A model generated the notes under the pieces. It ran no database searches and was not told where the DNA came from. It saw only the letters and a list, made by a program, of their open reading frames with translations. Shown here one piece after another: positions 7,943-59,787 of a stretch of DNA of 64,000 nucleotides (positions are counted from its first letter, which is position 1; each line of letters opens with the position of its first letter). A program made the translations under genes and the position numbers. The stretch comes from Blautia sp. (GTDB lineage: Bacteria > Bacillota > Clostridia > Lachnospirales > Lachnospiraceae), in contig JAFVGK010000048.1 of NCBI GenBank assembly GCA_017475035.1, positions 22,430 to 86,429 on the forward strand, written 5' to 3'.

Positions 7943-8053
7943 GAGTGACTGATTTTGCTGCTTTGACAGCGTTGCTGCCGAAGCAGCAAAATCGTCATCC
8001 GTGGTTATTGAGTCAACGAGTCAACGTATAAAACTTCGTTTTCGAAGGAGAAA
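7943..8053 (+). repeat. Element A copy (A1), supplies the RBS of the following gene
   Basis: Diverged copy of the dispersed element A: a GACTGATTTTG left end, a CAGCAAAATCGTCATCC middle, then ATTGAGTCAACG and a right end AAAACTTCGTTTTCGAAGGAG. The AAGGAG at its end is the Shine-Dalgarno sequence for the gene starting at 8059. Confidence 0.7.
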
Positions 8054-8058
8054 ATAGA

Positions 8059-9351
8059 ATGCCTGGTATCATCAACGAATTTGGCAATTATATTAATCAT
8101 CAAGCTCCTATGCATCCACAGCGCTGCAGGGAGCTTCTTTTGATGGCTTATCGCGCCTACGGGTTGAAGCTCAGGTATTTTCCGGAAAAGAGACTTCCGC
8201 CATCAAGACAGTATGCAGCCGTTCATATGAATCATGTAGTTACGAAAATGCTTGCGCATCCGGAACACGCGGCTTTGGTTAGCATATTTATGCCTTGCGA
8301 GCTTTTGGAGGTCATGGATGTGATCCCTATGTGCGCGGAGCTGTACTCCGCTTTCCTGAACGGAACCTACGCGGAGTCTGTCTTTGCCCAGACAGCAGAG
8401 GATGAAGGGATCCCTGAAACATATTGCTCATATCACAAGATATTGCTTGGCAGCGCGTATACCGGTATGCTCTCAGCGCCTGCGTTTATAGTCAATACCT
8501 CACATATCTGCGACGCAAATAACCTTACCTTTCGGGAATTGGCGGATTTTTACGGCATTGATCAGTTCTATCTGGATGTGCCGTTAGCCCGAAATGAAGA
8601 AAGTGTCGGGTATGTGGCTGAGCAGTTAAGGGAATTGCCGTCTTTTTTGGAAGAGCATACCGGGAAAAAGTTTGATGAAGAGAAGCTTTTCCGTATTATG
8701 CAGCGTTCTCAGCGTACGGTACAGAAACTGAAACAGGTTTTGGTGGAAAAGAAACGGGCTTATCTTTCGGGAGATGTGACCAGCGAGATGTATGAAATCT
8801 ATCTAGCCCATAACGGATTGGGATCTGCTGCTTCGGAGAGATATGCTGATCTGCTGCTGGGGGACATCCGGAAGGCCCCGAAGGCTGAGGGGCTCCGCCT
8901 TCTCTGGATTCATACAATTCCGAACTGGCAGACGCCGGTCAGGGAGAAGCTGAACTTTCATAAAGATTGTCAGATTATCTGCTGCGACATGTGTGTGGAG
9001 GGATTAACGGATGTCGATCCCCTGCATCCCTATGAGAGCATGGCAAAACGTCTGGTATACAGTCCTTTCAACGGAGGAAATTCCCGGGTGGAAAATTCTG
9101 TGAAGCTGGCAAAGGAACTTGAGGTTGACGGAGCGGTTGTGTTCTGTCATTGGGGATGTAAACAGACAATGGGGCTTTCTGCAGCACTCAGGCAGCGGCT
9201 GGAAATCGAAGGGTACCCTGCCCTGGTTCTGAATGGTGACGGCTGTGACAGAAGAAACTCTTCGGATGGCCAGACGGCAACCAGGCTGGATGCGTTTCTG
9301 GAGCAGCTGCGCCAGGGAGGAAGCAAAAAGCATATGATCCCCGAGGCGTAA
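8059..9351 (+). CDS. 2-hydroxyacyl-CoA dehydratase (HgdB-like) family subunit
   Basis: A 430-residue member of the 2-hydroxyacyl-CoA dehydratase D-component family, whose members bind [4Fe-4S] clusters and, after one-electron activation, dehydrate 2-hydroxyacyl-CoA or reduce related substrates. Visible hallmarks are several isolated cysteines in the family's usual contexts: FMPCELLEV, ETYCSYHK, HICDANN, CCDMCVEG, FCHWGCKQ and NGDGCD. The next gene encodes a matching activase fused to a second dehydratase-like domain, so this protein is probably one half of the redox enzyme and the fusion supplies the other half plus the activator. The substrate cannot be read from the sequence. The start has AAGGAG eight bases upstream, inside repeat element A. 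Confidence 0.8.
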   Translation: MPGIINEFGNYINHQAPMHPQRCRELLLMAYRAYGLKLRYFPEKRLPPSRQYAAVHMNHVVTKMLAHPEHAALVSIFMPCELLEVMDVIPMCAELYSAFLNGTYAESVFAQTAEDEGIPETYCSYHKILLGSAYTGMLSAPAFIVNTSHICDANNLTFRELADFYGIDQFYLDVPLARNEESVGYVAEQLRELPSFLEEHTGKKFDEEKLFRIMQRSQRTVQKLKQVLVEKKRAYLSGDVTSEMYEIYLAHNGLGSAASERYADLLLGDIRKAPKAEGLRLLWIHTIPNWQTPVREKLNFHKDCQIICCDMCVEGLTDVDPLHPYESMAKRLVYSPFNGGNSRVENSVKLAKELEVDGAVVFCHWGCKQTMGLSAALRQRLEIEGYPALVLNGDGCDRRNSSDGQTATRLDAFLEQLRQGGSKKHMIPEA

Positions 9352-9421
9352 TAAAAGTAATCATAGCCTGCCTGCTCACATTTTGGGAAGGTTTTTTGAT
9401 ACATATCCTTAAGGACTGTAT

Positions 9422-11380
9422 ATGAACGAAAAAATATATTATATCTGTAAATACACCCCGGTTGAGCTTTTAGCCGGTTTTGGCCTGGAAGCGGTTCGAC
9501 TGGACCCGGCTCCGGACAGCTTTTCCTGCGCGGATGCCTGCCTGCATCCGAATCTCTGCGGTTATGGAAAAGCTGTGGCAGAGGCTGTTGAAGAGCAGAA
9601 GATCCGGAGATTGATCGTCATCAATTGCTGCGATGTTTGTCAGCGCATCTATGATGTGCTGCTGCAAAAAGGTGAAATGGAACTGTTGTTTTTGCTGAAT
9701 CTGCCTCATAAGGCTTCTGATTCTGAGATCCATTTATTCCGGAAAGAATTGTCTCGCTTATGTACGTATCTGGAAAGCACCCTGGGCAGAACTCTGGATG
9801 TCAGCCTGGCCCGTAAGTCCTGGGAAGCCCTGATGTCGGAGCAGGGAGAGACTGATTTTGTCTTCGGCAGTCCAACTGCCGAAGCAGCAAAATCGTCATC
9901 CGGAAACATTGCGTTAGATTCCAAAACTGGTTTGGAGGAGACTGGTTTTGTGGAGAAGAAAAGGATAGCAGGACAGAAGATCATCCTTACCGGAGCACAC
10001 GGAGGGAGTTTTCTCCGCTCTTTGATCGAAGAGAAAAGTCCTTTGCCGATAGAGGATCAGACCTGTACAGGGATGAGGAAGCTGTCAGGGCTTCCAGACT
10101 GTCTTTCAACAGAAGAAGAGAGCGGAGCCTCTTTCCTGAAATCCTATGCAGAGGCTTTGCTGACACAGGAATATCCCTGCATGCGAATGCAGTTCCGTAA
10201 AGAGCAGGGGAGACTGATTCTGTCTTCGGCAGTTCAGCAGCCGAAGCAGCAAAACCGTGATCCGGAGACATTGAGTCAACCTGCAAAGCTGCATTTTGGG
10301 AGGAGACACAGAAAGCCGGAAAATGAGAGCGCTTCTGACGTGGCAGGAATCATCTGTCATACAATGAAATTCTGCGATTATTATGGGTTTTCGTACCGGC
10401 ATCTGCGAAAGGAGGAGGTTCCGCTGCTGAAAATAGAGACAGATAGCTCGCCCCAGTCCCTGGGACAGCTGCATACCCGGCTGGATGCCTTTTTTGAGAC
10501 GATCTTGATGAGAGGGGCCGGGAAGAAGGAAAAAGAAAGCCGGGGCATCGGGAAACCGGCTTCAGAGGAAACGGCCGGCGGAATATTTGTTGCCGGTCTC
10601 GACAGTGGTTCTGCCAGTACCGATGTTGTCGTGATGGATGAGCAGAAACAGATTGTGGGAAAAGCGATTCTTCCGACGGGTGCCGGCGCGGCGGCGGGGG
10701 CGCAAAAAGCTCTGGAGCTTGCCCTCAATGACGCTCATATTCCCAGAGACAGGCTTTCCCACATTGTATCAACCGGATATGGACGGGAAACGGTAGGTAC
10801 TGTGGAGAGATCTGTGACGGAAATAACCTGCCATGCGAAAGGGGCGTATTTTTTATGCCCGGAGGTACGCACGGTCATTGATATCGGCGGGCAGGACAGC
10901 AAGGTTATTCGACTGGATGCGGAGGGAAATGTGACAAACTTTGTCATGAATGATAAATGTGCTGCCGGAACCGGCAGATTTCTGGAAATGATGGCAAGGA
11001 CTTTGGGACTCGACCTGGCGGAGATGAGCAGGCTGGGTCTGACGGATGGAAATGAGACAGCGATTTCCAGTATGTGCACGGTTTTCGCAGAATCCGAGGT
11101 GGTTTCTCTCATTGCTGATAATACGCCGACAGCAGATATAATCAGAGGCTTAAATATGGCAGTCGCCAAAAAAACGGCTTCCCTTGCCAGACGGCTCGGC
11201 TTTGAGGAGAAGGTGGTGATGACGGGCGGCGTAGCCCGGAACCAGGGTGTTGTAAAGGCTCTGGAAAAGCGGCTGGGCGTACCTGTCACCGTGCCGGAAC
11301 ACGCACAGCTTTGCGGCGCGATCGGAGCTGCCCTGTACGCTTTGGAGTCTGTCACTGAGGGCGTTTCTGGCCTCATGTAA
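9422..11380 (+). CDS. Dehydratase-like domain fused to BadF/HgdC-type activase ATPase
   Basis: This 652-residue protein has two parts. Residues 1 to about 375 resemble an HgdB-type dehydratase subunit (TPVELLAGFGLE, VINCCDVCQRIYD, then KIILTGAHGG and a PCMRM segment). Residues from about 386 form an ASKHA activase: DSGSASTDVVV (phosphate 1), DIGGQDSKV (phosphate 2), TGGVARNQGVV, plus Cys513 (NDKCAAGTGRF) and Cys552 (SMCTVFAE), which match the two cysteines that bridge the [4Fe-4S] cluster in HgdC-type dimers. The activase hydrolyses ATP to push an electron into the dehydratase. Two copies of repeat element A are inserted in frame at about residues 143-174 and 263-295, both within the dehydratase-like half. 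AAGGA precedes the start by seven bases. Confidence 0.8.
   Translation: MNEKIYYICKYTPVELLAGFGLEAVRLDPAPDSFSCADACLHPNLCGYGKAVAEAVEEQKIRRLIVINCCDVCQRIYDVLLQKGEMELLFLLNLPHKASDSEIHLFRKELSRLCTYLESTLGRTLDVSLARKSWEALMSEQGETDFVFGSPTAEAAKSSSGNIALDSKTGLEETGFVEKKRIAGQKIILTGAHGGSFLRSLIEEKSPLPIEDQTCTGMRKLSGLPDCLSTEEESGASFLKSYAEALLTQEYPCMRMQFRKEQGRLILSSAVQQPKQQNRDPETLSQPAKLHFGRRHRKPENESASDVAGIICHTMKFCDYYGFSYRHLRKEEVPLLKIETDSSPQSLGQLHTRLDAFFETILMRGAGKKEKESRGIGKPASEETAGGIFVAGLDSGSASTDVVVMDEQKQIVGKAILPTGAGAAAGAQKALELALNDAHIPRDRLSHIVSTGYGRETVGTVERSVTEITCHAKGAYFLCPEVRTVIDIGGQDSKVIRLDAEGNVTNFVMNDKCAAGTGRFLEMMARTLGLDLAEMSRLGLTDGNETAISSMCTVFAESEVVSLIADNTPTADIIRGLNMAVAKKTASLARRLGFEEKVVMTGGVARNQGVVKALEKRLGVPVTVPEHAQLCGAIGAALYALESVTEGVSGLM
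9848..9942 (+). repeat. Element A copy (A2) inserted in frame in the activase gene
   Basis: Near-consensus left two thirds of element A, including the palindrome CTTCGGCAG-TCCAA-CTGCCGAAG. It is read as ETDFVFGSPTAEAAKSSSG; the usual TAA after CGTCATCC is changed here to GGA, keeping the frame open. Confidence 0.85.
10210..10305 (+). repeat. Element A copy (A3) inserted in frame, different reading frame
   Basis: Full-length element A, from GAGACTGATTCTG to TTTTGGGAGGAG, read as GRLILSSAVQQPKQQNR and onward to LHFGRRH. This uses another reading frame of the element than copy A2. It sits directly after the conserved PCMRM segment of the dehydratase-like domain, before VAGIICHTMKFCDYYG. Confidence 0.85.
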
Positions 11381-11477
11381 GAACATGATAACTCCTCACT
11401 TTCCCCGGTCTCCGTCATATTGTCCAAGTATAATCGGAGATTTTTTTCATTAAAAATGCAAAACGCACAAAAAAGAG

Positions 11478-13237: not shown

Positions 13238-13338
13238 GAAGACTGATTTTGTCTTCGGCAGTCCAACTGCCGAAGCAGCAGAATCGTCATCCTAAGACAT
13301 TGAGTCAACCTGCAAAACTGCGTTTTGGGAGGAGGAGA
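13238..13338 (+). repeat. Element A copy (A4), close to consensus, supplies the next gene's RBS
   Basis: Left arm GACTGATTTTG, perfect CTTCGGCAG/CTGCCGAAG stem, CGTCATCCTAAGACATTGAG, and right end AAAACTGCGTTTTGGGAGGAG. The purine-rich end is the ribosome binding site for the GTG start at 13344. The rest of 12932-13237 holds the mntP inverted repeat, a GCCGC/GCGGC hairpin near 13013-13030 and nothing coding that I can support. Confidence 0.85.
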
Positions 13339-19599: not shown

Positions 19600-22062
19600 A
19601 TGATCGACAGACAGTTTAAGAAAGAAACCTTTAAGAAAAATGTTGCGGATAATGTCAAGTTTCTATATAGAAAAAAACTGGAAGAAGCATCCCAACAGCA
19701 GATCTATCAGGCTGTGTGCTACACGGTCAAGGATGTGATTATCGACAACTGGCTGGAGTCTCAAAACGCATATGATGAGCAGGATCCGAAGATTGTCTAT
19801 TACATGTCCATGGAGTTTTTGATGGGTCGTGCCCTGGGAAATAACCTGATCAATCTGGGTGCCTACGGCGAGGTAAGGGAAGCCCTGGCTGAGCTCGGCA
19901 TTGATCTGAACATGGTGGAAGATCAGGAGCCGGATCCGGCGTTGGGAAACGGCGGACTTGGTCGTCTTGCGGCCTGCTTTTTGGATTCCCTGGCAACCCT
20001 TAATTATTGTGCTTATGGCTGTGGGATCCGTTACCATTATGGTATGTTCAAGCAGAAGATCAAAGACGGATTCCAGATCGAAGCGCCGGATAACTGGCTT
20101 AAGGAAGGCTATCCTTTTGAACTGCGTCGTCCGGAGTACGCAAAAGAGGTTCATTTCGGCGGGTATGTCCGTGTAGAATATGACGCCGCGAAGGGTGAAA
20201 ATGTTTTCATCCATGAAGGATATCAGGCAGTTCGCGCGATTCCGTTTGATATGCCGATCGTGGGCTACAATAATCATGTGGTCAACACTCTGCGTATCTG
20301 GGATGCGGAACCGATCGTGGATTTTGGTCTGGATTCCTTTGACAAGGGCGATTATAAAAAGGCAGTGGAGCAGGAAAACCTGGCGAGAAATATTGTCGAG
20401 GTCCTTTATCCCAATGACAATCATTACGCCGGTAAGGAGCTTCGTCTGAAACAGCAGTATTTCTTTGTTTCAGCAAGCCTGCAGGCTGCCATTGACAAGT
20501 TTAAGAAAAAACATTCTGATATCAATCTGCTTCCCACCAAGGTGGTTTTCCAGATGAATGATACCCATCCGACTGTCGCGGTTGCGGAGCTGATGCGTAT
20601 CCTGCTTGATGAAGAAGGCCTGGGCTGGGATCAGGCATGGGCGATCACGACCAAATGCGTTGCCTATACCAACCACACGATCATGTCCGAGGCGCTTGAG
20701 AAATGGCCGATCGAGCTCTTCTCGCGTTTGCTTCCGCGTGTATATCAGATCGTGGAAGAGATCAACCGCCGCTTTATCCTGCAGATTCAGGCAGAGTATC
20801 CCGGTAATTATGAGAAGATCAAAAAAATGGCGATCATCTATGACGGGCAGGTCAAGATGGCGCACCTCGCGATCGTTGCCGGCTATTCCGTCAACGGTGT
20901 GGCAAGGCTGCACACGGAGATCCTCAAGAATCAGGAGCTGCATGATTTCTACCAGATGATGCCGGGCAAATTTAATAATAAGACCAACGGCATCACTCAG
21001 AGGCGTTTCCTGCTTCACGGAAATCCGCTGCTGGCGGGCTGGGTCAGCGACCATATCGGACCGGACTGGATCACGGATCTTTCCGCGATTAAGAAGCTTG
21101 CGGTTTATGCGGATGATGAAAAAGCCCAGATGGAATTTATGAATATCAAGTTCCGCAACAAGCAGCGTCTTGCCAAATATATCCTGGATCATAACGGGAT
21201 CGAGGTGGATCCGCATTCGATCTTTGACGTACAGGTTAAGAGACTGCATGAATACAAGCGTCAGCTGCTGAATATTCTCCATGTGATTTATCTGTATAAT
21301 CAGATCAAGCAGCATCCGGAGATCGATTTCTACCCAAGGACCTTCATCTTCGGAGCGAAGGCCTCCGCGGGATATGAGAGAGCGAAGAAGATCATCAAGC
21401 TGATCAATTCTGTTGCAAATGTTGTCAATAATGATCCTGCTCTCGGCGGAAAGCTGAAGGTCGTCTTTATCGAAAACTATCGTGTTTCCAACGGCGAGAT
21501 CATCTTTGCGGCAGCGGATGTCTCGGAGCAGATCTCTACCGCCAGTAAGGAAGCTTCCGGTACAGGCAATATGAAATTCATGCTTAACGGCGCTCCTACA
21601 CTGGGCACGATGGACGGAGCCAACGTGGAGATCGTTGAAGAAGTCGGTATGGAGAATGCCTTCATCTTTGGCCTGTCTTCCGAGGAAATCATTAATTATG
21701 AAAGAAACGGCGGTTATGACCCGAATGTCATCTACAATACCGACGGTGATATCCGGCAGGTGCTGATGCAGCTGATTAACGGAACCTTCGATTCTGATAC
21801 GGATCTGTTCCGCGATATCTATGATTCGCTGCTGACGAGAAAATATTCTGACCGTCCGGATCAGTACTTCATCCTGGCCGATTTCCGTTCCTATGCGGAG
21901 GCACAGCATAAGGTTGAACAGGCTTACCGCGATGAAAAACGCTGGGCAAAGATGGCGCTTTTGAATACTGCCTGCAGCGGCAAGTTTTCATCCGATCGTA
22001 CGATCGAAGAATATGTCCGTGATATCTGGCATCTGGATAAGGTGGTTGTAAAACAGGCGTGA
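19600..22062 (+). CDS. glgP: Glycogen/maltodextrin phosphorylase
   Basis: An 820-residue family GT35 alpha-glucan phosphorylase, which releases glucose 1-phosphate from glycogen or maltodextrin. The pyridoxal phosphate lysine is in EASGTGNMKFMLNG (Lys659). Other hallmarks are YYMSMEFLMGRALGNNL, LGNGGLGRLAACFLDS, QMNDTHPTVAVAELMR and the DVQVKRLHEYKRQLLN segment. The length is normal for the bacterial family. CAGGAGG precedes ATG 19600. The gene lies 14 bases behind ileS and is probably read from the ileS promoter, an odd pairing. A strong 18-bp hairpin lies 45 bases after the stop. Confidence 0.95.
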   Translation: MIDRQFKKETFKKNVADNVKFLYRKKLEEASQQQIYQAVCYTVKDVIIDNWLESQNAYDEQDPKIVYYMSMEFLMGRALGNNLINLGAYGEVREALAELGIDLNMVEDQEPDPALGNGGLGRLAACFLDSLATLNYCAYGCGIRYHYGMFKQKIKDGFQIEAPDNWLKEGYPFELRRPEYAKEVHFGGYVRVEYDAAKGENVFIHEGYQAVRAIPFDMPIVGYNNHVVNTLRIWDAEPIVDFGLDSFDKGDYKKAVEQENLARNIVEVLYPNDNHYAGKELRLKQQYFFVSASLQAAIDKFKKKHSDINLLPTKVVFQMNDTHPTVAVAELMRILLDEEGLGWDQAWAITTKCVAYTNHTIMSEALEKWPIELFSRLLPRVYQIVEEINRRFILQIQAEYPGNYEKIKKMAIIYDGQVKMAHLAIVAGYSVNGVARLHTEILKNQELHDFYQMMPGKFNNKTNGITQRRFLLHGNPLLAGWVSDHIGPDWITDLSAIKKLAVYADDEKAQMEFMNIKFRNKQRLAKYILDHNGIEVDPHSIFDVQVKRLHEYKRQLLNILHVIYLYNQIKQHPEIDFYPRTFIFGAKASAGYERAKKIIKLINSVANVVNNDPALGGKLKVVFIENYRVSNGEIIFAAADVSEQISTASKEASGTGNMKFMLNGAPTLGTMDGANVEIVEEVGMENAFIFGLSSEEIINYERNGGYDPNVIYNTDGDIRQVLMQLINGTFDSDTDLFRDIYDSLLTRKYSDRPDQYFILADFRSYAEAQHKVEQAYRDEKRWAKMALLNTACSGKFSSDRTIEEYVRDIWHLDKVVVKQA

Positions 22063-22063
22063 C

Positions 22064-22113
22064 CGTCATCCGAAGTTTTTGCATAGCATACAAAACTGCG
22101 TTATGAGAGGGAG
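22064..22113 (+). repeat. Element A right-half remnant (A7)
   Basis: GTCATCCGAAG at 22064-22075 and CATACAAAACTGCGTTATGAG leading to GAGGGAGG: the middle and right end of element A. Its Shine-Dalgarno-like end is now inside the stem of the following hairpin. Confidence 0.6.
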
Positions 22114-22542: not shown

Positions 22543-22769
22543 GTACTTTTTTAAAAAAATTAGTCCTGAATAGTATTAAATGATTGAATAGTATAAATAT
22601 AACAAACTTTTACGCAAACAATATGAACAAAACATTCTTCCTGCTTGTTCTCTTATCCTGATTGTGATATACTTTTTTAAAAGAACCAGCCTGCGGCTTT
22701 ATATTTGTTTGACGTACCGCAATTACGCCGCACAAGCGGCATCCTTCAGACTTCGTTTCGGGAGTCATA

Positions 22770-22847
22770 TTCTGTCCCCGAGCGGGAAGCCCGACAGGCA
22801 GCAAAACAGTCATCCGGACGGTATGACTGTTTACAATTATGGAGGAG
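22770..22847 (+). repeat. Element A-like remnant (A8) upstream of the EAL gene
   Basis: A diverged left half (CTGTCCCCGAGCGGGAAGCC, then GGCAGCAAAACAGTCATCCGG) followed by a TTATGGAGGAG end that is the ribosome binding site of the next gene. The rest of 22543-22770 is AT-rich with a GCCGC/GCGGC hairpin near 22725-22740; nothing coding is supported. Confidence 0.5.
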
Positions 22848-22857
22848 TTGATCTGCT

Positions 22858-24786
22858 TTGAATTATAATATTTCTTATGATATTGCCGCGTTGCTTCTTT
22901 CGGCAATCACATTTGCGGGAGTTCGCCTTACAAAAGACATGAACCGCCGGGAGAATGTGATCTTTTCGATACTGATCGCGGTGAATTTTGCAACAGCCTT
23001 CCTTGATATTTTAAGTGCGTATTGCATCATGCATCCGAGTACCGTGGATTATATTTTCACGGATCTGGCGGCATATATGTATATCATTATTCATAATATG
23101 CTTCCCTTTCTGTACTATCTGTATGTTTTACAGGCTTCCAGCGGTACACTCAGGCCTTTAATGAGTTACCGGGGTCTGCAGATTATACCTTTGCTCTGCA
23201 GTATAGTCATGATTGCTTTGCAGCCTTTTTTTCACCAGCTTTATATTATCGGATCGGATGGAGTATATTACAGGCAGCCGCTTTTAAGCGTGCTGTATCT
23301 GAATGCCGCGATCTACATCATGCTGGGATCCGGCTATGCGGTAATCCACAATTGGCGTCTGACCTCCTGGAGGGTGCCGATGTTTTTGGGATATACCGCC
23401 GCTACGGGCGTGGCAATTATCCTCCAGGTTTTATGGCCGAGTCAGCTGATAGAGGTTTTTTGCCAGACATTGGCTTTCATTGTTCTTATGTATACGATCG
23501 AGGATTCGGAAAGTATCTATGACGCAAAAGAGAAGCTTTATAACCGGAAGGGTTTTTTGATTGATATGGAAAAGCATTTTTCCGGCAGGGAACCCTTCGG
23601 CCTTATTATGGTGCGTTTTACGAATATCGGTCGATACGCCAGTCTGATCGGATCCTCGGCTCTGTACAGCTGTTATATAGAGAATCTGAATGAGCTGATT
23701 ATGGGCGTGTCACGCAGTAAATGGTATGATTTGGGAAATTATACATTTGCGTTTGATATCAGACAGAGGGATACGAGGTGGATCAATTCTTTCCTTCGAC
23801 GTGTAGAAACAAAGTTCCGGCAAAACTGGACATATGGAAACAGAGAATTATTTCCTGAAGCACAGCTTTTTGCGCTTCGGATTCCGGATGATTTTGACCG
23901 GACAGATATGCTGTTAAAGATTGCCGATCGTTTTCATTTAAATCTTCCACTGAATAAAGTATTGTCAGGGAATGCCCTGGCTGGCATAAAACGGGAGTTT
24001 CAGATTGAGGAGGCTTTGGGCAGGGCACTGGTTGAAGATCATTTTGAAGTTTATTACCAGCCGATCTGGGAAGTGGCTACAAAACGGTTTCATTCTGCGG
24101 AGGCATTGCTTCGTCTTCATGATGAGTTATTAGGGGAGATTCCGCCTGATGAATTCATACCGATTGCGGAAAACAATGGCATGATTGTCGAAATTGGCCA
24201 GGTGATGCTGAAAAAGGTCTGCGCATTTGTCAGACAGAGCGATCTGCGAAGCGTAGGCATTCAGTTTATCGACATAAATCTCTCAATTGTTCAATGTATG
24301 GTTGGAAATTTCACAGATTCGATGACCAGGATTATGCAGGATTATGGAGTTCCTGCCAATGTTATCAATTTTGAGATCACGGAGGCGGCTTCCAGGGAAA
24401 ATTATCCCGGACTGCATCAGACGATCCAGGCATTACACAGTATTGGATCCGGCTTTTCCCTTGATGATTTCGGAACGGGGTATTCCAATCTATCAGCAGT
24501 AGTACAGATGGATTTTGATAATATAAAAATAGATAAAAGCGTTCTTTGGGACGCAGACGAAAACAAAAATGCCAATATTTTATTGAGAGAGGTGATCAAA
24601 ACCCTCCAGAATATGAACAGAAAAATCGTTGTGGAAGGCGTAGAGACAGAGTGGCAGAAACAGAAGCTGCTCGATTTTGGCTGTGATTATCTGCAGGGCT
24701 TTTATTTCAGCCGACCTCTGGAAAGCGGGAAGTTTGTGGACTTTGTGAAAGAATATAATCTTTCGGCAGCGGAAGAGGAGGATTAG
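22858..24786 (+). CDS. Membrane-bound EAL-domain cyclic-di-GMP phosphodiesterase with degenerate GGDEF
   Basis: A 642-residue protein. Residues 1 to about 215 contain about seven hydrophobic helices, an uncharacterised membrane sensor module. A degenerate GGDEF-like domain follows (about 225-375, no GGDEF motif). The EAL domain lies at about 395-635 with the catalytic set visible: EALLRL, FIDINLS (Asn), FEITEAA (Glu), LDDFGTGYSN (Asp-Asp), IKIDKS (Lys) and VVEGVET (Glu). It should therefore hydrolyse c-di-GMP to pGpG at the membrane, with the GGDEF remnant perhaps binding GTP. The start is TTG at 22858, ten bases after GGAGGAG. It appears monocistronic. Confidence 0.88.
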   Translation: MNYNISYDIAALLLSAITFAGVRLTKDMNRRENVIFSILIAVNFATAFLDILSAYCIMHPSTVDYIFTDLAAYMYIIIHNMLPFLYYLYVLQASSGTLRPLMSYRGLQIIPLLCSIVMIALQPFFHQLYIIGSDGVYYRQPLLSVLYLNAAIYIMLGSGYAVIHNWRLTSWRVPMFLGYTAATGVAIILQVLWPSQLIEVFCQTLAFIVLMYTIEDSESIYDAKEKLYNRKGFLIDMEKHFSGREPFGLIMVRFTNIGRYASLIGSSALYSCYIENLNELIMGVSRSKWYDLGNYTFAFDIRQRDTRWINSFLRRVETKFRQNWTYGNRELFPEAQLFALRIPDDFDRTDMLLKIADRFHLNLPLNKVLSGNALAGIKREFQIEEALGRALVEDHFEVYYQPIWEVATKRFHSAEALLRLHDELLGEIPPDEFIPIAENNGMIVEIGQVMLKKVCAFVRQSDLRSVGIQFIDINLSIVQCMVGNFTDSMTRIMQDYGVPANVINFEITEAASRENYPGLHQTIQALHSIGSGFSLDDFGTGYSNLSAVVQMDFDNIKIDKSVLWDADENKNANILLREVIKTLQNMNRKIVVEGVETEWQKQKLLDFGCDYLQGFYFSRPLESGKFVDFVKEYNLSAAEEED

Positions 24787-26713: not shown

Positions 26714-27388
26714 TCAAATATCAGAAGCAGTTTTTTCATATTTGCCCGACAGAAAATGAATGAATCTCCGGACATACTCCATGTCTGAAGAACTGTCCAG
26801 TCTTCCGAGATAAACAGGGGAATAGGATGTCAGGGCGTAGCTGTTCCATATTTCCAGATCAGAAAGATCCAGACGGCCTTCAGGAGCGAAAAGAGTCTGG
26901 TATTCTTCATATTCTTCGCCCAGTATCTCCGTCCAGTCTGTAAACGCTCCTTGTTCTTCCAGGTTCAGATAGGTTTCTTCATTGCAGATCAGAAGGTCAG
27001 TGAGACCTCCTCCGACGACAACCGTCAGCTTGGATACGGCGGCCACCGTATCGCCGGACATAAGGGAGGTATCAAGCTCTATCTTCTCATGTTCGATTCC
27101 GTTTCCGATGGCAGCCAGAAGATCCTGCCTGAACTGTTCAACCTCCCGGTCACGGTCGATGGGTACATCCATGATGGCAATCGAAAGCAGTTTGATCTCC
27201 TGCAGACGGTGATAGATCCCGATTCCTTCCGCTATGAAAAAAATGACGATGGCGGCGACAAGCAGTGTCCATTTATAATAATCCCAGAAATATTCCAGTT
27301 TCTGAGATACATTCATTTTTTTGAATTTTTCCCATTCCAATAAACGCCGTTCTTTAGGTGTCAGGTCGGATTCGTGTTTTTCTTCCAT
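26714..27388 (-). CDS. Single-pass membrane protein of unknown function
   Basis: A 224-residue protein. The N-terminus is charged and cytoplasmic (about residues 1-40, with MNVSQKLEYFWDYYKW), one transmembrane helix follows (about 41-60, LLVAAIVIFFIAEGIG), then a mostly acidic extracytoplasmic domain of about 160 residues. It resembles a group of Lachnospiraceae hypothetical proteins with an EYFWDYYKW juxtamembrane motif, but I know no function. Its ribosome binding site (GAGGAG, 27400-27405) lies in a diverged, minus-strand copy of repeat element A. deoC and DUF1294 lie downstream on the same strand. Confidence 0.7.
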   Translation of the reverse strand: MEEKHESDLTPKERRLLEWEKFKKMNVSQKLEYFWDYYKWTLLVAAIVIFFIAEGIGIYHRLQEIKLLSIAIMDVPIDRDREVEQFRQDLLAAIGNGIEHEKIELDTSLMSGDTVAAVSKLTVVVGGGLTDLLICNEETYLNLEEQGAFTDWTEILGEEYEEYQTLFAPEGRLDLSDLEIWNSYALTSYSPVYLGRLDSSSDMEYVRRFIHFLSGKYEKTASDI

Positions 27389-27399: not shown

Positions 27400-27491
27400 C
27401 TCCTCTTAATACGCAGTTTTTTATAAGGACTTATGATTCCCGCATGACGTTTTGCCGCTTTGTCAGCTGAAGCTGCTGAAAAAACAGTCAC
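27400..27491 (-). repeat. Element A diverged copy (A12), minus strand
   Basis: Read on the minus strand: GTGACTGTTTTTTCAGCAGC, a CAGCTTCAGCTG core, GGCAAAACGTCATGC, then AAAAAACTGCGTATTAAGAG ending in GAGGAG. All landmarks of element A occur in order, and the right end faces the gene it serves. Confidence 0.65.
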
Positions 27492-27583
27492 CCCGGAAGA
27501 TGATGGTGAGTCAGACGGCATGAGGTCATATATTGAGTGTACCTTATCCTGTCTTTGTTTGTCAATGTACAACAGTTTTTCCA

Positions 27584-32934: not shown

Positions 32935-32996
32935 CATGATGACAGTCAAAGAATGTACTATTACGGTAAGGATCTGTGCACCCTATACACGTACAG

Positions 32997-33092
32997 GAGA
33001 CTGATTTTGTCTTCGGCAGCCCGACTGCCGAAGCAGCAAAATCGTCATCCTAAGACATTGTGTCAACGCACAAAGCTTCGTTTTGGAGGAGG
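32997..33092 (+). repeat. Element A reference copy (A5)
   Basis: Full-length: GAGACTGATTTTG, stem CTTCGGCAG/CTGCCGAAG with loop CCCGA, CAGCAAAATCGTCATCC, TAAGACATTGTGTCAACG, then AAAGCTTCGTTTTGGAGGAGG. The outer GATTTTG and CAAAATC also pair, extending the palindrome to about 41 bases. Confidence 0.9.
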
Positions 33093-34162: not shown

Positions 34163-36085
34163 ATGAGATGGATGCACATGAGTAAAGCGAAAAAAAATAA
34201 GAGGTATCGTGTGAATCGTCAAGGACAGCGGACAGGAGCAGATCCTTTGTACAAGGATCTGCTTTTTCCGATTTTAGGCGTACTTTGTGTACTGCCGTTC
34301 GTTGTCAGACTGGAAATCTACGATACGGGGTATGACAGATATGTCTGGTATGTCAGTGAGAACGGATGGAGCACGGATTTGTTTTCCCTTGCAAAAAGCA
34401 GATTGTTTGTGCTTCTGGCTATCGTGATGGCGGTGATTCTTTTGCTTCGATGGCTGTTTTTCCGTAACTCTATGCGGTTTGGGAAAGAACTGTTTTTTTT
34501 GGCAGGGTATGGTATCTGCGTCGTTCTCTCTTCCCTTTTATCAAAATACAAGATCGCAGCGGTCAGGGGAAATCTGGAATCCTTCGAAAATGTATTTGTA
34601 CTGCTGGGATATGTGGTGCTTGCCTTCTATGTTTATGAAACCGTGCAGAGAGAAGAAGACTATCGTTTGATATGGCGGGGATTTCTCGTGGCTTTTATTC
34701 TGCTGGCTTTTGTGGGAATTCTGCAGATTTTCAATATCCGGCTCCTGGATCAGGACTGGATCCAGCGTCTGATCATGAGGGAAGAGGATTATGAAGTATT
34801 GGGAGGCAGGCAGGAATATATCTTTATCGGAAGATATGTGTTCTCCACGCTTGCGAACCCGAATTACGCGGGAGTCTGGTTTTCGATGGCGTTTGTCCTG
34901 CTTTTTGCCATGTCCTGGACGGAAACAAAGAGACGGAAAAGAATTGGCCTGACTCTTCTGACCATACTGGCACTGGTGCTGATGTGGTTCACCTATTCCA
35001 GAACGGCACTCGTATCTTCCGCCGCGGGGCTTTGCTGTGTTGTGTACCGCCGGAAGCTTGAGGAAGACCGCATTACCGGATCCGAAAGCTTTCGTGTGAA
35101 GGAACTGATCCGGGCTGCTGTCATTTTAGCGGCGGCAGCAGCCGGACTGCTTATCCTTGACGGACTGACGGGTTTTCACTTTCTGTCGCGGTTAAAGGAT
35201 TCGGGACATCAGGAACCGCTGGAAAAGATCCTGACTTTACCGGAGGGAGTGCTTGTCAGATATGACGGCAGGGAATATGTGATTTCCATGCAGGAAGGCA
35301 GGCTGCTGGTAAGAGCGGACGGAAAAACAGCGAATGACCCATTGCTTACGGATGACGGTTCTCAAGCTTCGGCACCATCGACGGAAAAAGAAACGTCCGC
35401 CTCCGGATATGAAGATGGTTTGCTGAAAGATGGCATTTTCTATATTTCCGCAAAAGATCAGGTAAAAGCATATCCGGATGAACGACTGGTCCCGGAGGGC
35501 TTTTCCCTTGAGGCTGCCGGTCAGAGGATGGATTTTGTCCGGGAAGACGATACGTGGTGGTATCTGACAAAGCTGGGGGAAAAAGATCAGATGGCGGAGA
35601 TTCCGAAGGTGAGCTTTGGTGGACTGGAATATCTCGGTTCTTCCCGCCTTTATATCTGGTCGAGAACCTTGCCCCTTGCGGGAAAATATATCCTGGCAGG
35701 CAGTGGTCCGGACAGCTTTCCGGAAGTTTTTCCGCAAAATGATTATGCAGGAAAGGCAGTTTATGCGGATCGGGCGGAAAGGGTGATAGAATCTGCCCAC
35801 AATGCATATCTGAATCAATGGATCCAGACCGGCGGACTGTCCCTGGTGTGCCTGCTTGCTTTTTATTTTTCTTTAGTGCGGAAATTCCGTCAGAAAAGAA
35901 GAAAAATGGCGGAGACACAACGTTGCGGCCGGACGATGGAGGCGGATTTGTCAAACCCGTTTGTAAATCGTCTGCAGGCCGGTGCTATGGGAGCGTTCCT
36001 ATGTTTTCTTACCGCTTCCCTGTTTATTGATTCAACGGTCCAGACAGCTCCCTTTTTTTGGATTCTGGCAGGACTGATCATGTAA
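34163..36085 (+). CDS. O-antigen ligase/polymerase-like membrane protein
   Basis: A 640-residue polytopic protein. A basic cytoplasmic N-terminus (SKAKKNKRYRVNRQG) is followed by about ten hydrophobic helices. The Wzy/WaaL-type core (about residues 80-350) includes FSTLANPNYAGVWFSMAF and WFTYSRTALVSSAAGL. A hydrophilic extracellular loop of about 200 residues (about 345-545) precedes the signature SAHNAYLNQWIQTGG. In Gram-positive bacteria such proteins join or polymerise surface glycans, but no glycosyltransferases lie nearby. Start choice is uncertain: ATGs at 34163, 34172 and 34178 are all in frame and none has a strong ribosome binding site. Confidence 0.75.
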   Translation: MRWMHMSKAKKNKRYRVNRQGQRTGADPLYKDLLFPILGVLCVLPFVVRLEIYDTGYDRYVWYVSENGWSTDLFSLAKSRLFVLLAIVMAVILLLRWLFFRNSMRFGKELFFLAGYGICVVLSSLLSKYKIAAVRGNLESFENVFVLLGYVVLAFYVYETVQREEDYRLIWRGFLVAFILLAFVGILQIFNIRLLDQDWIQRLIMREEDYEVLGGRQEYIFIGRYVFSTLANPNYAGVWFSMAFVLLFAMSWTETKRRKRIGLTLLTILALVLMWFTYSRTALVSSAAGLCCVVYRRKLEEDRITGSESFRVKELIRAAVILAAAAAGLLILDGLTGFHFLSRLKDSGHQEPLEKILTLPEGVLVRYDGREYVISMQEGRLLVRADGKTANDPLLTDDGSQASAPSTEKETSASGYEDGLLKDGIFYISAKDQVKAYPDERLVPEGFSLEAAGQRMDFVREDDTWWYLTKLGEKDQMAEIPKVSFGGLEYLGSSRLYIWSRTLPLAGKYILAGSGPDSFPEVFPQNDYAGKAVYADRAERVIESAHNAYLNQWIQTGGLSLVCLLAFYFSLVRKFRQKRRKMAETQRCGRTMEADLSNPFVNRLQAGAMGAFLCFLTASLFIDSTVQTAPFFWILAGLIM

Positions 36086-41357: not shown

Positions 41358-41439
41358 GAGCCGAAACGCGAAAGCAGCCCCTCTGCGAAACGATCCGTAG
41401 AATCAGGCTTTCGTTGAAGAAACATAGACATTATTTAGG

Positions 41440-41522
41440 AGACATCGAGTCAACGTACAAAACTTCGTTATGACAGGAGACATTGAGTCAACTTACAAAA
41501 ACGGCGTCGTTAAGGTAGGAGG
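41440..41522 (+). repeat. Two tandem right-end fragments of element A (A6) before purA
   Basis: GAGACATCGAGTCAACG-TACAAAACTTCGTTATGACAG and GAGACATTGAGTCAACT-TACAAAAACGGCGTCG, the second ending in AGGAGG. They supply the purA ribosome binding site. Confidence 0.65.
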
Positions 41523-41532: not shown

Positions 41533-42816
41533 ATGGTAAAGGCTGTGGTTGGAGCAAACTGGGGCGATGAGGGCAAGGGTAAAATTACGGATATGCTCTC
41601 GGCGCAGGCTGATATTGTCATCCGCTTTCAGGGCGGAGCAAATGCCGGGCATACGATTGTGAATAATTATGGGAAGTTTGCCCTGCATACACTGCCCAGC
41701 GGCGTTTTTTATGATCATACGATGAGCATTATAGGAAACGGCGTTGCTCTGGATATTCCCGGTTTTTTTAAGGAATATGGCGAACTTCTGTCAAGAGGGG
41801 TGCCTGCGCCTAAAATCATGATCTCGGACAGGGCGCAGATCGTGATGCCATATCACCGTTTGTTTGATCAATATGAGGAAGAAAGGCTTGCCGGAGCCTC
41901 CTTCGGCTCCACAAAGTCCGGAATTGCTCCGTTCTATTCTGATAAGTATGCGAAGGTCGGCATACAGGTGAGTGAATTGTTCGATGAGCCACGGCTTCGT
42001 GAAAAGCTGGAACGTGTGATTGTGACGAAAAACATTCTCCTTGAGCATCTGTATCATAAGCCTTTGCTTGCAGTGGATGAGCTGATGGAGACACTGAAGG
42101 AATACCGGGAAATGGCAGCTCCTTATGTCGGTGATGTATCCGCGTATCTGGATGAGGCGGTCAGGGCAGGCAAGAATATTCTTCTGGAAGGTCAGCTTGG
42201 ATCACTCAAGGACCCTGATCACGGGATATATCCGATGGTAACCTCTTCCTCCACACTTGCCGGCTTTGGCGCGGTCGGAGCCGGGCTTCCGCCCTATCTG
42301 ATCAAAGATGTCATTGTTGTCTGCAAGGCTTATTCCAGCGCGGTCGGAGCCGGGGCTTTTGTATCTGAGATTTTTGGCGACGAGGCGGCAGAGCTCCGCA
42401 ATCGTGGCGGAGACGGGGGTGAATATGGCGCGACAACCGGTCGTCCTCGCCGGATGGGCTGGTTTGACTGTGTGGCATCAAGATATGGATGCCGTATTCA
42501 AGGCGCGACGGATGTTGCTTTTACGGTCCTGGATGTGCTTGGATATCTGGATGAAATTCCGGTCTGTGTCGCATATGATATAGACGGTGAGATTACCGGA
42601 GATTTCCCTGTCACTGCAAGACTGGAGAGGGCAAAACCTGTGTGGAAGACGCTTCCGGGATGGAAGACGGATATCCGCGGCATCAAAGAGTACGAAAAGC
42701 TTCCAAAGGAATGCCGGGATTATATTGAATTTATTGAAGCTGAGCTTGGCTATCCGATCACGATGGTGTCCAACGGACCGGGAAGAGACGATATTATCTA
42801 CCGCAAAGTGAAGTGA
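41533..42816 (+). CDS. purA: Adenylosuccinate synthetase
   Basis: A 427-residue enzyme that uses GTP and aspartate to convert IMP to adenylosuccinate, which PurB then cleaves to AMP. The P-loop-like GANWGDEGKGKITD lies at the N-terminus, followed by RFQGGANAGHTIV (catalytic His), GTTKSGIAP-type SFGSTKSGIAPFYSD, LLEGQLGSLKDPDHG and TTGRPRRMGWFD. I chose ATG 41533, ten bases after AGGAGG, because it gives the family's normal N-terminus and length; the ATG at 41524 is too close to the ribosome binding site and the open frame further upstream is repeat DNA. Confidence 0.95.
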   Translation: MVKAVVGANWGDEGKGKITDMLSAQADIVIRFQGGANAGHTIVNNYGKFALHTLPSGVFYDHTMSIIGNGVALDIPGFFKEYGELLSRGVPAPKIMISDRAQIVMPYHRLFDQYEEERLAGASFGSTKSGIAPFYSDKYAKVGIQVSELFDEPRLREKLERVIVTKNILLEHLYHKPLLAVDELMETLKEYREMAAPYVGDVSAYLDEAVRAGKNILLEGQLGSLKDPDHGIYPMVTSSSTLAGFGAVGAGLPPYLIKDVIVVCKAYSSAVGAGAFVSEIFGDEAAELRNRGGDGGEYGATTGRPRRMGWFDCVASRYGCRIQGATDVAFTVLDVLGYLDEIPVCVAYDIDGEITGDFPVTARLERAKPVWKTLPGWKTDIRGIKEYEKLPKECRDYIEFIEAELGYPITMVSNGPGRDDIIYRKVK

Positions 42817-51062: not shown

Positions 51063-51187
51063 ACCTGTAAAACTGCGTTTTGGGAGGAGACATATTTTGC
51101 CCACGGCTGCGTTTTTTTGCAGGCGTGGCTGCAAAATAGTCATCCGTGACCATTGAGTCAAAGTACAAAACTTCGTTTTGAGAGGAG
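51061..51187 (+). repeat. Two element A pieces (A9) between acpP and gltX
   Basis: A right end (AACCTGTAAAACTGCGTTTTGGGAGGAG, split here for reading, 51061-51088), then a more complete diverged copy with GGCTGCAAAATAGTCATCCGTG, CATTGAGTCAAAG and AAAACTTCGTTTTGAGAGGAG (about 51095-51187). The last GAGAGGAG is the gltX ribosome binding site. Confidence 0.75.
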
Positions 51188-56191: not shown

Positions 56192-56212
56192 CAGGAACAA
56201 AGGGAAGGCCGG

Positions 56213-56694: not shown

Positions 56695-56704
56695 TGAGGG
56701 ATAT

Positions 56705-57196: not shown

Positions 57197-57233
57197 AACG
57201 GTTCCATTCAGGCGGAGGTCATAAACCGTATTT

Positions 57234-58502
57234 ATGGAAACAACAGGCAGGATATTTACCGTAGGCGAAATCAATCGGTACATTAAACGAATGTTCAGCT
57301 CGGATTTATTGCTTCACAATCTGACAGTGGAGGGTGAGGTCTCAAATCTGAAATATCATACAAGCGGGCATATTTATTTTTCCCTGAAGGATGAAGGCGG
57401 GACGCTTTCCGCGGTAATGTTTGCCGGACAGAGAAGAGGTCTTGGCTTTCGGATGAAGGATGGAGACCATGTCCTTGTCAGGGGAATGGTGGACGTCTAT
57501 GAGAGAGACGGAAAGTATCAATTGTATGCCAGGGAAATTACGCTGAAGGGAGCCGGGCTTTTGTATGAAAGGTTTCTTCAGCTCAAGGAGGAGCTTCTTG
57601 AGATGGGGATGTTTGATGCCGCATATAAAAAGCCGATTCCCGGGATGATCCGTACCCTTGGGATTGTGACGGCTCCGACAGGAGCTGCCGTACAGGACAT
57701 ACGGAATGTGTCTTTGCGAAGGAATCCCGGTTTGCAGCTGATCCTTTATCCGGCGCAGGTACAGGGGGAAGGAGCGGCTGAGAGTATCGTTAAGGGGATC
57801 CGCACACTGGATGCCTATGGCGTTGATGTGATGATTGTCGGACGCGGAGGCGGATCGATTGAGGATTTATGGGCGTTTAATGAAGAGATCGTTGCAAGGG
57901 CGATTTTTGCCTGTCAGACTCCGGTTATTTCTGCGGTAGGCCATGAGACGGATTTTACGATTGCTGATTTTGTTGCGGATTTACGGGCCCCTACACCTTC
58001 TGCAGCAGCCGAACTGGCCGTGGAGGATTCTTCGGCGCTGATCCGGAGTCTGTCCGGGCAAAAGGGACGGCTTTTGCAGGCGATGCAGAGAAAACTGCTG
58101 CATTTGTCGGACCGGCTGGCTTCTTATGAAACAAAGCTGCATTATCTGGATCCCAGATCGAGGCTCAGGGATCATCAGCTGCATCTGGATGATCTCTCGG
58201 AACAGATCCGGCGGGGGATGCAGATGAAGCTTATGCAAAGCCGGCATCGTCTGGAGGTACTGGAAAGAAGAATTGCGGGACAGTCGCCTTTCCTGAAGCT
58301 GGACCAGGGATATGCATATGTAAGTACATCTGATGGCAAAGCATTAAAGAGCATACGTCAGGTAACAAAGAAGGATGAACTGTTGATATATGTCACAGAC
58401 GGCATCTTAAAAACGATCGTATCCGAGACACGGGAGACGGATTCTGTTTTCGGCAGCCCAACTGCCGGAACAGCCCAATCGTCATCCGCAGACATTGATT
58501 AA
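57234..58502 (+). CDS. xseA: Exodeoxyribonuclease VII large subunit, with a repeat-derived C-terminus
   Basis: A 422-residue subunit of exonuclease VII, which degrades single-stranded DNA. The N-terminal OB-fold (about 6-100: VGEINRYIKRMF, VEGEVSNLKYHTSGHIYFSLKD) is followed by the catalytic domain with GIVTAPTGAAVQDI, VGRGGGSIEDLWAFNEE and SAVGHETDFTIADFVAD, then a long coiled-coil region and a final KLDQGYAYVST segment. The last about 23 residues (ETDSVFGSPTAGTAQSSSADID) are encoded by repeat element A, not by the native gene. GGAGG lies 15 bases before ATG 57234, a long spacing. Confidence 0.94.
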   Translation: METTGRIFTVGEINRYIKRMFSSDLLLHNLTVEGEVSNLKYHTSGHIYFSLKDEGGTLSAVMFAGQRRGLGFRMKDGDHVLVRGMVDVYERDGKYQLYAREITLKGAGLLYERFLQLKEELLEMGMFDAAYKKPIPGMIRTLGIVTAPTGAAVQDIRNVSLRRNPGLQLILYPAQVQGEGAAESIVKGIRTLDAYGVDVMIVGRGGGSIEDLWAFNEEIVARAIFACQTPVISAVGHETDFTIADFVADLRAPTPSAAAELAVEDSSALIRSLSGQKGRLLQAMQRKLLHLSDRLASYETKLHYLDPRSRLRDHQLHLDDLSEQIRRGMQMKLMQSRHRLEVLERRIAGQSPFLKLDQGYAYVSTSDGKALKSIRQVTKKDELLIYVTDGILKTIVSETRETDSVFGSPTAGTAQSSSADID

Positions 58503-58528
58503 ACCTGCAGAACTGTGTTTTGGGAGGA
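58434..58528 (+). repeat. Element A copy (A10) forming the end of xseA and the xseB RBS
   Basis: GAGACGGATTCTG, stem TTCGGCAG/CTGCCGGA, CAATCGTCATCC, GACATTGATTAAACCTGC and GTGTTTTGGGAGGAAAG. The in-frame TAA within it ends xseA, and its GGGAGG starts xseB. Confidence 0.85.
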
Positions 58529-58537
58529 AAGAAAAAT

Positions 58538-58795
58538 ATGGCAGAAAAGGAAAAAGCGAAGCATCTGACCGAGCCGGGGGATTCTTCGGCGGCAGAGCGG
58601 CCGATGGAAGAGATTTTTTCAAGACTGGAAGAAATATCGTCCTGTCTGGAGAAGACAGAAACTACGCTGGAGGATTCTGTCCGGCTCTATCAGGAAGGAA
58701 TGGAGCTGGTAAAAGCCTGTCAGGTCAGACTCGATATGACGGAAAAGAAGATGCTGCAGATAAGTGAGGATGGTACGTTACGTGAATTTCCATGA
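58538..58795 (+). CDS. xseB: Exodeoxyribonuclease VII small subunit
   Basis: An 85-residue helical protein that binds the coiled coil of XseA. The family core is clear: EEIFSRLEEISSCLE, EDSVRLYQEGMELVKAC and LDMTEKKMLQISEDG. The N-terminal 20 residues are a charged extension. I chose ATG 58538, nine bases after GGGAGGAAAG from element A; a TTG at 58520 lies inside that site. The 3' end overlaps the start of ispA by 14 bases. Confidence 0.93.
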   Translation: MAEKEKAKHLTEPGDSSAAERPMEEIFSRLEEISSCLEKTETTLEDSVRLYQEGMELVKACQVRLDMTEKKMLQISEDGTLREFP

Positions 58796-59669
58796 AATAT
58801 TGAAGCAAAAGACGGATCGGGCTAATGCGGTGATCCGGGCTTACCTTCCAAAGGAGGAGGGAGCTCCGGCAAGACTGATCGAAGCGATGAATTACAGCAT
58901 GACGGCAGGCGGGAAACGGCTGCGTCCGATTCTGATGGAGGAGGCTTATCTCATTTTCGGCGGAACGGAGACGGTCATTGAGCCTTTCATGGCGGGGATT
59001 GAGATGATTCATACCCACTCTCTGGTACACGATGACCTGCCTGCTCTGGATAATGATCTTTTACGCCGGGGAAAGCCGACGACCCACGCTGTTTATGGGG
59101 AGTCCTGCGCAATCCTGGCCGGCGACGCACTTTTGAATTATGCTTATGAGATCATGCTGGGGAGCTTTTCCCAGACTGCCCGTCCGGAGCTGGCGGCAAG
59201 AGCGCTGCGCCTGCTGTCACTAAAGACGGGCATTTTTGGTATGTTGGGCGGACAGGGTGTGGATGTGGAGAATGACGGCAGGGAGATTACGGCAGACCTT
59301 CTGCAATATATTTATGAAAAAAAGACTGCCGCTTTACTGGAAGGCTCTTTGCTGACAGGAGCCATCCTTGCCGGAGCATCAGATGAGGAAACAGCGGTTG
59401 TTGAGGCTGCGGCAAAAAATATCGGGCTGGCGTTCCAGATATATGATGATATTCTGGATGTGACAGGAACCTGCGAAGAGCTGGGGAAGCCAATCCACAG
59501 TGACGAAAAGAATCATAAGACGACCTACGTCACTCTTTATGGCCTGAAAGAGGCACAGGAGCGGGCTGAAGCTTTGACCCGGGATGCCGTAGAGCGGATC
59601 AGGCTGCTGAGAGGCGATACTGCCTTTCTTGTGGAGCTGGCCCTGAGCCTGACCAGCCGCAGGGTATAA
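58782..59669 (+). CDS. ispA: Polyprenyl synthetase, farnesyl diphosphate synthase type
   Basis: A 295-residue trans-prenyltransferase that condenses isopentenyl diphosphate with allylic diphosphates. The first Asp-rich motif is HDDLPALDND, the second is YDDILDVTG; GGKRLRPIL and the K(T) region HKTTYVTLYG are also present. The FARM region (THSLVHDD) fits a farnesyl/geranyl chain length. I chose GTG 58782 (VNFHEILKQ) because it matches the usual N-terminus of the family; GTG 58764 and ATG 58770 are alternatives. It overlaps xseB, and dxs follows. Confidence 0.92.
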   Translation: MNFHEILKQKTDRANAVIRAYLPKEEGAPARLIEAMNYSMTAGGKRLRPILMEEAYLIFGGTETVIEPFMAGIEMIHTHSLVHDDLPALDNDLLRRGKPTTHAVYGESCAILAGDALLNYAYEIMLGSFSQTARPELAARALRLLSLKTGIFGMLGGQGVDVENDGREITADLLQYIYEKKTAALLEGSLLTGAILAGASDEETAVVEAAAKNIGLAFQIYDDILDVTGTCEELGKPIHSDEKNHKTTYVTLYGLKEAQERAEALTRDAVERIRLLRGDTAFLVELALSLTSRRV

Positions 59670-59680
59670 TAATCAGGCAG

Positions 59681-59787
59681 GTGAGGAGAACGGTTTTGTA
59701 CAGATCCTTAGGCAGTCCGGCTGCCAAAGCAAAATCGTCATCCGAAAACAGAATGTCAGTACGAATCGGCATTCTAAGAGGAGTATA
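59681..59787 (+). repeat. Element A/C composite (A11) between ispA and dxs
   Basis: GAGAACGGTTTTG, a TACAGATCCTTAGG element C end, CAGTCCGGCTGCC stem, AAAGCAAAATCGTCATCCG and a right end CATTCTAAGAGGAG that provides the dxs ribosome binding site. Confidence 0.6.

Follow-up and report, generated by a model that had tools for sequence, protein, structure and literature searches.

A 64,000-nucleotide stretch of a Blautia sp. contig (assembly GCA_017475035.1, contig JAFVGK010000048.1), hereafter denoted the window, raises the question of how nine genes came to be preceded by one and the same palindromic element, the right end of which supplies each with a Shine–Dalgarno (SD) sequence. The original prediction was of a mobile or spreading 5′-leader module which carries an SD to genes without a common function. 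Analysis of the window and of its source genome (the own genome, below) leads us to modify this proposal: the module is probably a mobile palindromic element of about 93–97 bp, non-autonomous and strand-specific, which inserts directly 3′ of GGAG and restores GGAG. Since GGAG is the SD core, most surviving copies would lie in the same orientation as the gene, with the halves of a native SD on either side. Thus an SD is indeed carried, as predicted, with the correction that the SD core seems to serve both as cargo and as the site targeted by insertion.

A 19-mer of the right end (at most three mismatches) has eight matches in the window, compared with 0.04 expected from shuffles. The right end, or a variant of it, is the SD of all nine genes named in the original prediction, on the strand of the gene in each case (Table 1). 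The copies are full or partial, as had been stated; seven of the nine are essentially full (those before the genes at 27388 and 59793 being diverged), that at 22858 is a variant, and that at 41533 is a palindrome-less pair. The asserted lack of a shared function also stands, with only transport components recurring among eight leader genes of the window and 20 sampled from 94. A repeat scan of the window revealed two extra intact copies, in frame within a single open reading frame (ORF); together with a fragment that is not followed by a start codon, these indicate that the copies in the window are not all leaders.

A genome-wide profile search, which the original prediction had called for, revealed a strong bias towards start codons and gene orientation elsewhere in the genome. 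With at most two mismatches, the 17-mer CAGCAAAATCGTCATCC has 183 matches in the own genome, 116 of them forward and 67 reverse, compared with none for the reversed control, and a covariance model built from 23 copies has at least 150 matches there. Positions were analysed in the window plus stretches fetched around copies, a sample of 0.91 Mb out of 5.08 Mb. In the window and one set of these stretches the covariance model gives 230 matches (116 and 114), or 215 once overlaps are dropped. Among these 215, a gene follows downstream on the same strand in 168 intergenic cases and on the opposite strand in 11; six more are without a downstream gene, and 30 are located in genes (26 sense, four antisense). 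Searches with DNA profiles of types A and B recover 241 copies from the own genome and 85 from other genomes (five duplicates dropped), the latter from loci picked for an element match. By a strict definition, in which the start codon of a coding ORF must be within 40 nt of the 3′ end, 140 of the 241 own copies and 66 of the 85 others precede a start. The mirrored control gives one in each set, whilst means over 20 repeats are 10.1 and 3.7 for random positions and 29.8 and 10.8 for random intergenic positions. For full right ends the start codon is most often 7–9 nt away.

Median identity is 75% for type A and 85% for type B, and the spread is therefore not all recent. Adjacent tandem pairs (ends within 12 nt) number 29 in the own genome and four in other genomes, and tandem copies, read by eye, share one GGAG. 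A replication-strand proxy revealed no difference between element-led genes (87 to 15) and others (530 to 126; p 0.34). One and the same gene start, glutamate-synthase-like by eye, is element-bearing in three genomes (loci L154, L237 of genome G048 and L294 of genome G086) and may be a recurrent target; two of these copies score as type A and the third as type B.

Read 5′ to 3′, the proposed plan of the element is the target GGAG, then AC, a large hairpin with a foot in which GGAGAC would pair with GTCATCC, a small GAC-N5-GTC stem, a second hairpin, and GGAGGAG. Changes on both sides are found at 26 of 28 base pairs, with 170 such cells compared with 53.9 in shuffled data and far fewer in slid controls, as counted over 114 rows of a structure-fitted alignment that includes some overlapping opposite-strand matches. 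Stems differ among subfamilies A, B, C/D and E, but GGAGAC, GTCATCC, the terminal AGGAG and the small stem, which in most is GAC-N5-GTC, are retained. The left GGAG is predicted to be paired (0.92–0.99) in five of six folded sequences, and the right end much less so (0.15–0.43); the predicted openness of the SD is slightly greater in element leaders than in native ones (0.45 and 0.38 unpaired, respectively; 108 and 168 leaders; p 0.002). By eye, GGAGAC at one end and GGAGGAG at the other do not form an inverted repeat, and paired regions with compensatory changes lie at both ends; a classical miniature inverted-repeat transposable element was rejected because there are no terminal inverted repeats. 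In transposition of the IS200/IS605 family, such as that of IS608, a guide adjoining the hairpin interacts with the target. The pairing of GTCATCC with GGAGAC may be compared, by analogy only, with such an IS200/IS605 guide.

The flanks inform on the target. Among 167 copies, 99 carry GGAG as the left tag. Both ends are defined in 132 intergenic copies, 80 of which combine an exact left GGAG with a complete flank; 15 of the 80 are in tandem, and the remaining 65 solitary copies were compared with 172 native SDs and with 3091 GGAGs of coding sequence. An A is present at −3/−2/−1 of the left GGAG in 62/48/77% of copies, 45/56/63% of native SDs and 22/26/23% of coding GGAGs, and a G directly follows the right end in 57% of copies, compared with 56% of native SDs and 28% of coding GGAGs. 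The flanks thus look like the halves of a native SD, AAAGGAG^G, and the A-rich left flank and the G after the right end place the element within an apparent split SD. Left ends other than GGAG are matched by an identical right end in only 4 of 68 cases. Since the element ends in its own target sequence, insertion without duplication and duplication of GGAG both fit.

One copy, at locus L117, interrupts a second dispersed repeat, and a copy of that repeat at locus L138 is unoccupied, with GGGAG at the corresponding point. The L138 copy can be aligned through the junction with L117 sequence on both sides of the element (80% over 164 nt), and it reads ...GACGGGAGAAGACTC... where L117 reads ...GACGAG-element-...GATGGCTC.... 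Fifteen other copies of the right half of the second repeat are present in the window and stretches, and ten of them read GGGAGATGGCTCGG there, mostly with another left half. The gene after the L117 element is on the opposite strand, and the target therefore seems to be GGAG itself rather than a working SD. A joined-flank search with 253 full copies gave 31 spanning rows, of which only the L117/L138 pair was retained; the others were judged to be matches to self, to overlapping loci or between tandem copies. The second repeat (...GGGAGATGGCTCGGCTGTTATTTTTCGGCAGAGCGAATGTGACATC...) has 16 matches in the window and stretches, one being interrupted by the element. At about positions 1–70 of locus L168, 17 extra nucleotides (ACTGAAACCGATGGGAG) lie exactly at the position of the L117 element and may be what is left of a copy since deleted.

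Copies inside genes are consistent with the same target. All 13 of those whose ends are defined and which lie 45 nt or more from either end of the gene add whole codons, compared with 69 of 154 copies elsewhere, and two of the three sense frames of consensus A are open. Sense GGAGs in genes number 1729, 1141 and 221 in phases 2, 0 and 1, respectively; an insertion in phase 0 would meet stops in the consensus, and the 26 in-gene sense copies comprise 22 in phase 2 and four in phase 1. GGAG is also twofold more abundant in genes in the sense (3091) than in the antisense direction (1537). The phases and the sense bias of in-gene copies track this supply of GGAG. Both inserts of the window ORF are missing in all 17 aligned orthologues (29 were fetched from the genus), a few of which have other, unrelated extra residues at the first insert site. 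A TrpE host is about 35 residues longer, at the element, than the solved anthranilate synthase 7bvd; further hosts are two UvrD-family helicases, a CobB/CobQ-like protein (with three tandem copies), CitG, a DUF2264 protein and a permease. In addition, ORF 57234–58502 terminates within the element at 58433–58529, and its last residues are therefore element-encoded. Annotation is affected, since ORFs can contain element-derived insertions and C-termini.

Table 1. Copies of the element and associated features; positions are those of the window unless a locus is named.
Feature	Position	Strand	Remarks
Element type A, longer than consensus	7944..8050	+	Ends in the SD of the ORF at 8059
Host ORF with 2-hydroxyglutaryl-CoA dehydratase D-component and BcrAD/BadFG ATPase domains; two in-frame copies	9422..11380	+	
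Element type A inside ORF 9422–11380, in frame	9847..9942	+	Frame ETDFVFGSPTAEAAKSSS
Element type A inside ORF 9422–11380	10209..10305	+	Second open frame (GRLILSSA...)
Element type A, full	13238..13334	+	SD of GTG-start gene 13344 (mannitol dehydrogenase family)
Right-end fragment	22060..22110	+	No coding-ORF start codon within 40 nt
Variant copy, C core (other hairpin core) and D tail, ending ATGGAGGAG	22761..22851	+	SD of TTG-start gene 22858 (EAL domain)
Diverged copy	27400..27492	-	SD of minus-strand gene starting at 27388
Element type A, full	32996..33092	+	SD of ATG 33098 (FMN-dependent dehydrogenase)
Two tandem palindrome-less derivatives	41437..41522	+	Before adenylosuccinate synthetase gene, start about 41533; second derivative read by eye
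Right-end remnant (51069–51089), then in tandem full type B element (about 51086–51187)	51069..51187	+	SD of gltX 51194
Element type A	58433..58529	+	SD of ATG 58538; also C-terminus of upstream ORF 57234–58502
Diverged copy	59685..59783	+	SD of dxs at 59793
Second dispersed repeat, sites	36106; L063, L078, L104, L117, L128, L130, L138, L141, L145, L168		

The derivatives at 41437–41522 look as if a deletion between GGAGAC and GAAGACATT had taken the hairpin and left the SD. A weak match at 35335–35375 (21 bits) was taken as chance. Elsewhere in the window, a 1896-residue ORF (934–6624) consists largely of tandem repeats of 32–33 codons, with a higher-order repeat of 1257 nt.

Upon insertion before a gene, the native SD would be turned into the foot of the hairpin, and the GGAGGAG of the element, commonly 7–9 nt before the start codon, would become the new ribosome-binding site; presumably it is this SD that ribosomes use. 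Upon landing on a GGAG within a gene, the 93-nt insert would keep the frame and, as two of the three sense frames are open, the host protein would gain about 31 residues. The mobilising enzyme presumably reads GGAG, and the element may move in trans as single-stranded hairpin DNA, as do elements derived from IS200/IS605. The predicted mobile leader module is supported by the bias in position and orientation and by a patchy occurrence in relatives; its description as a leader does not cover a minority of copies, which are in-frame insertions into coding sequence.

Alternatively, insertion might be near-random, with purifying selection alone keeping copies where the SD-like end helps or where they are harmless. 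Among partial copies from the own and other genomes, loss of the left end is the commoner: 32 have only the right end (22 of them with a start codon) and 14 only the left (four with a start codon). This speaks for such selection, as does the preserved reading frame of in-gene copies. We nonetheless regard this reading as unlikely, as the flanks resemble a split native SD rather than an arbitrary site in a 5′ untranslated region, the L117 copy follows a GGGAG site despite not lying before a start on its own strand, and the phases and sense bias of in-gene copies track the GGAG supply.

The distribution among genomes is patchy, and the leader is not common to all relatives, a point on which the original prediction depended. 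Matches to the covariance model were found in 7 of 64 genomes of the genus, the own genome included, and in 0 of 34 high-quality genomes, in a survey with filters which lose weak matches; the other six are G065 (23 matches), G054 (22), G077 (7), G048 (6), G078 (6) and G018 (1). At the gltX locus there is no element match in any of 19 fetched relatives, these rows being used after a scan of 48 relative loci gave no match and the positive control gave four. The remainder of a cross-species comparison of starts (10 rows with an element, 82 without) was set aside; its flaws are ‘empty’ rows unscanned at part of the loci, duplicate records, misplaced starts and stretches chosen for elements. In G065, which has a further subfamily, 18 of 20 fetched copies (of 23) are at starts, with one in the mirrored control; in G054 the figure is 14 of 20 (of 22), with none mirrored.

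An exact type B 21-mer is present in 69 stretches of the genome_contigs collection, from nine assemblies; 50 of these are from SRR873601_bin.66 (G080), which has 106 model matches. The other type B assemblies are Lachnospiraceae or Clostridia(les) metagenome-assembled genomes (RUG series, UBA3845, SRR873600_bin.3), and type B is also found in Blautia sp. RGIG5706 from sheep duodenum, the sequence of which is identical to that of G054. RUG genomes are of rumen origin. No match to the exact type A 26-mer was present in genome_contigs, where records near the own genome may be left out. Carriage by phages or plasmids was rejected, as type B had no match in plasmids or phages, type A had none in plasmids (the phage search being made for type B only) and three element patterns had none in viral contigs.

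These genomes also bear on the proposal of a strict RAYT/REP system, in which a resident REP-associated tyrosine transposase (RAYT) would move the element as a repetitive extragenic palindromic (REP) sequence. The tetranucleotide at the foot of a hairpin and the many dispersed copies are in keeping with this, as are the diverged Y1 proteins of G048 and G078 and the presence of Y1_Tnp in 8 of 14 carriers tested. We rejected it as distinctly improbable, however, on the Y1 distribution and on the other repeats beside the diverged Y1 loci: Y1_Tnp is absent from six carriers, including the 106-copy G080, and present in two of five non-carriers tested, and the tag is GGAG, neither GTAG nor GTGG being among the 15 commonest left variants of 167 copies. 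The diverged, RAYT-like Y1 proteins of G048 and G078 (loci L241 and L242) are adjoined, by eye, by different short repeats, and no RAYT flanked by copies of the element was seen at these two loci, to which this check was confined; further Y1 loci are present in G081, G083 and G086. The RAYT-type protein sought on the suggestion of the original prediction is thus not consistently present in carriers. An IS91-type Y2 transposase (Y2_Tnp, PF04986), found in one of eight carriers, was also rejected. A riboswitch-like or protein-binding leader copied to a regulon, as might be suggested by hairpins with compensatory changes just before start codons, is hardly credible and was rejected, given unrelated downstream genes, the patchy occurrence in the genus, copies within coding sequence and in tandem, and a search with Rfam 15 that, at the gathering cut-off, gave only a tRNA in the window.

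Several observations weigh against a mobile element that inserts at GGAG. With regard to the enzyme, Y1_Tnp is missing from G080, G054, G082, G084, G085 and G018, is represented in G000, G065 and G077 by no more than fragments or partial genes, and, in the stretches (part of the genome), no left-half/right-half pair within 6 kb brackets an autonomous copy. With regard to the target, L117/L138 is a single occupied/unoccupied pair out of 253 full copies, the L168 copy of the second repeat has the left flank of L117 but with 17 extra nucleotides, and left and right GGAG co-occur somewhat above expectation (p 0.015). With regard to position, 101 of the 241 own copies fail the strict start test; by a looser test 71 own intergenic copies are without a start, of which 21 are followed by another element, 11 are without a right end, nine face an opposite gene and one lies where the locus ends, which leaves 29 without an explanation. 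Much of the bias could come from selection alone, genes were called by a codon-usage script trained on these same stretches, and the alignment behind the pair count, described above, is a further reservation.

Insertion 3′ of GGAG by a mobile element, the interpretation we favour, has a bolder form, which we put forward tentatively and consider doubtful: a new class of mobile element, with insertion keyed to the SD core through a GTCATCC guide pairing with GGAGAC and an enzyme outside the Y1/RAYT lineage, would have replaced the ribosome-binding sites of well over 100 genes in one genome, with a shared leader that might be co-opted for regulation. Small mobile repeats are usually regarded as tolerated in intergenic space. 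The present element appears to have a safe site at very many genes, as the ribosome-binding site is both targeted and restored, and insertion is frame-compatible when that site is missed. It has apparently spread across the genome of a gut bacterium by landing in the ribosome-recruiting signal and putting an equivalent back, without obviously breaking genes. This makes it testable how a genome tolerates having a sizeable fraction of its translation leaders replaced. The copies form a natural set of leaders in a shared SD context, and they suggest a mobilising enzyme of unusual target preference.

No element that both targets and restores an SD was recognised in the titles and abstract openings of the open-access papers found by search, most subscription papers being outside this scope. 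REPs measure 20–40 bp. They are described as tagged, dispersed hairpins, sometimes in genes and at ORF ends, with CGTC families that seem to be without a dedicated transposase (PMC3733652), and as lying largely between genes (PMC6006769). The element shares the tagged, dispersed hairpins and the occasional location in genes and at ORF ends, but differs from REP/REPIN sequences (GTAG and CGTC families) in its GGAG tag, its two hairpins with a terminal SD and its strong gene orientation. The BOX, RUP and SPRITE repeats of pneumococcus are likewise short, dispersed, structured and probably mobile, but are overrepresented between convergent genes (PMC3049150), whereas the element sits at gene starts.

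Rickettsia palindromic elements (RPEs) are short palindromic repeats found in frame in unrelated protein genes, to which they add a peptide (PMC10969869). The in-frame copies (13 of 13 with whole codons; inserts of the window ORF absent in 17 orthologues) are similar in this respect. It differs from RPEs, nearly all copies of which lie within ORFs, in that most copies are at gene starts and provide an SD, only 30 of 215 are in genes, and the host group is another. The palindrome-associated elements (PATEs) of Haloquadratum, which are related to IS200/IS605, have no terminal inverted repeats, palindromes near both ends, and a 5′ oligonucleotide that serves as target, with no target duplication (PMC3119063). 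The element is similar in its lack of terminal inverted repeats, paired regions at both ends, short fixed 5′ target (GGAG) and single orientation; it differs in that no parental IS605-type transposon was found, that the target is the SD core, and that the same motif ends the element, so that a translation signal is restored. Taken together, insertion adjacent to GGAG in one orientation, hairpins at the ends, no terminal inverted repeats and tandem copies resemble the single-strand transposition of the IS200/IS605 family as it is described in these sources (PMC3119063, PMC6006769).

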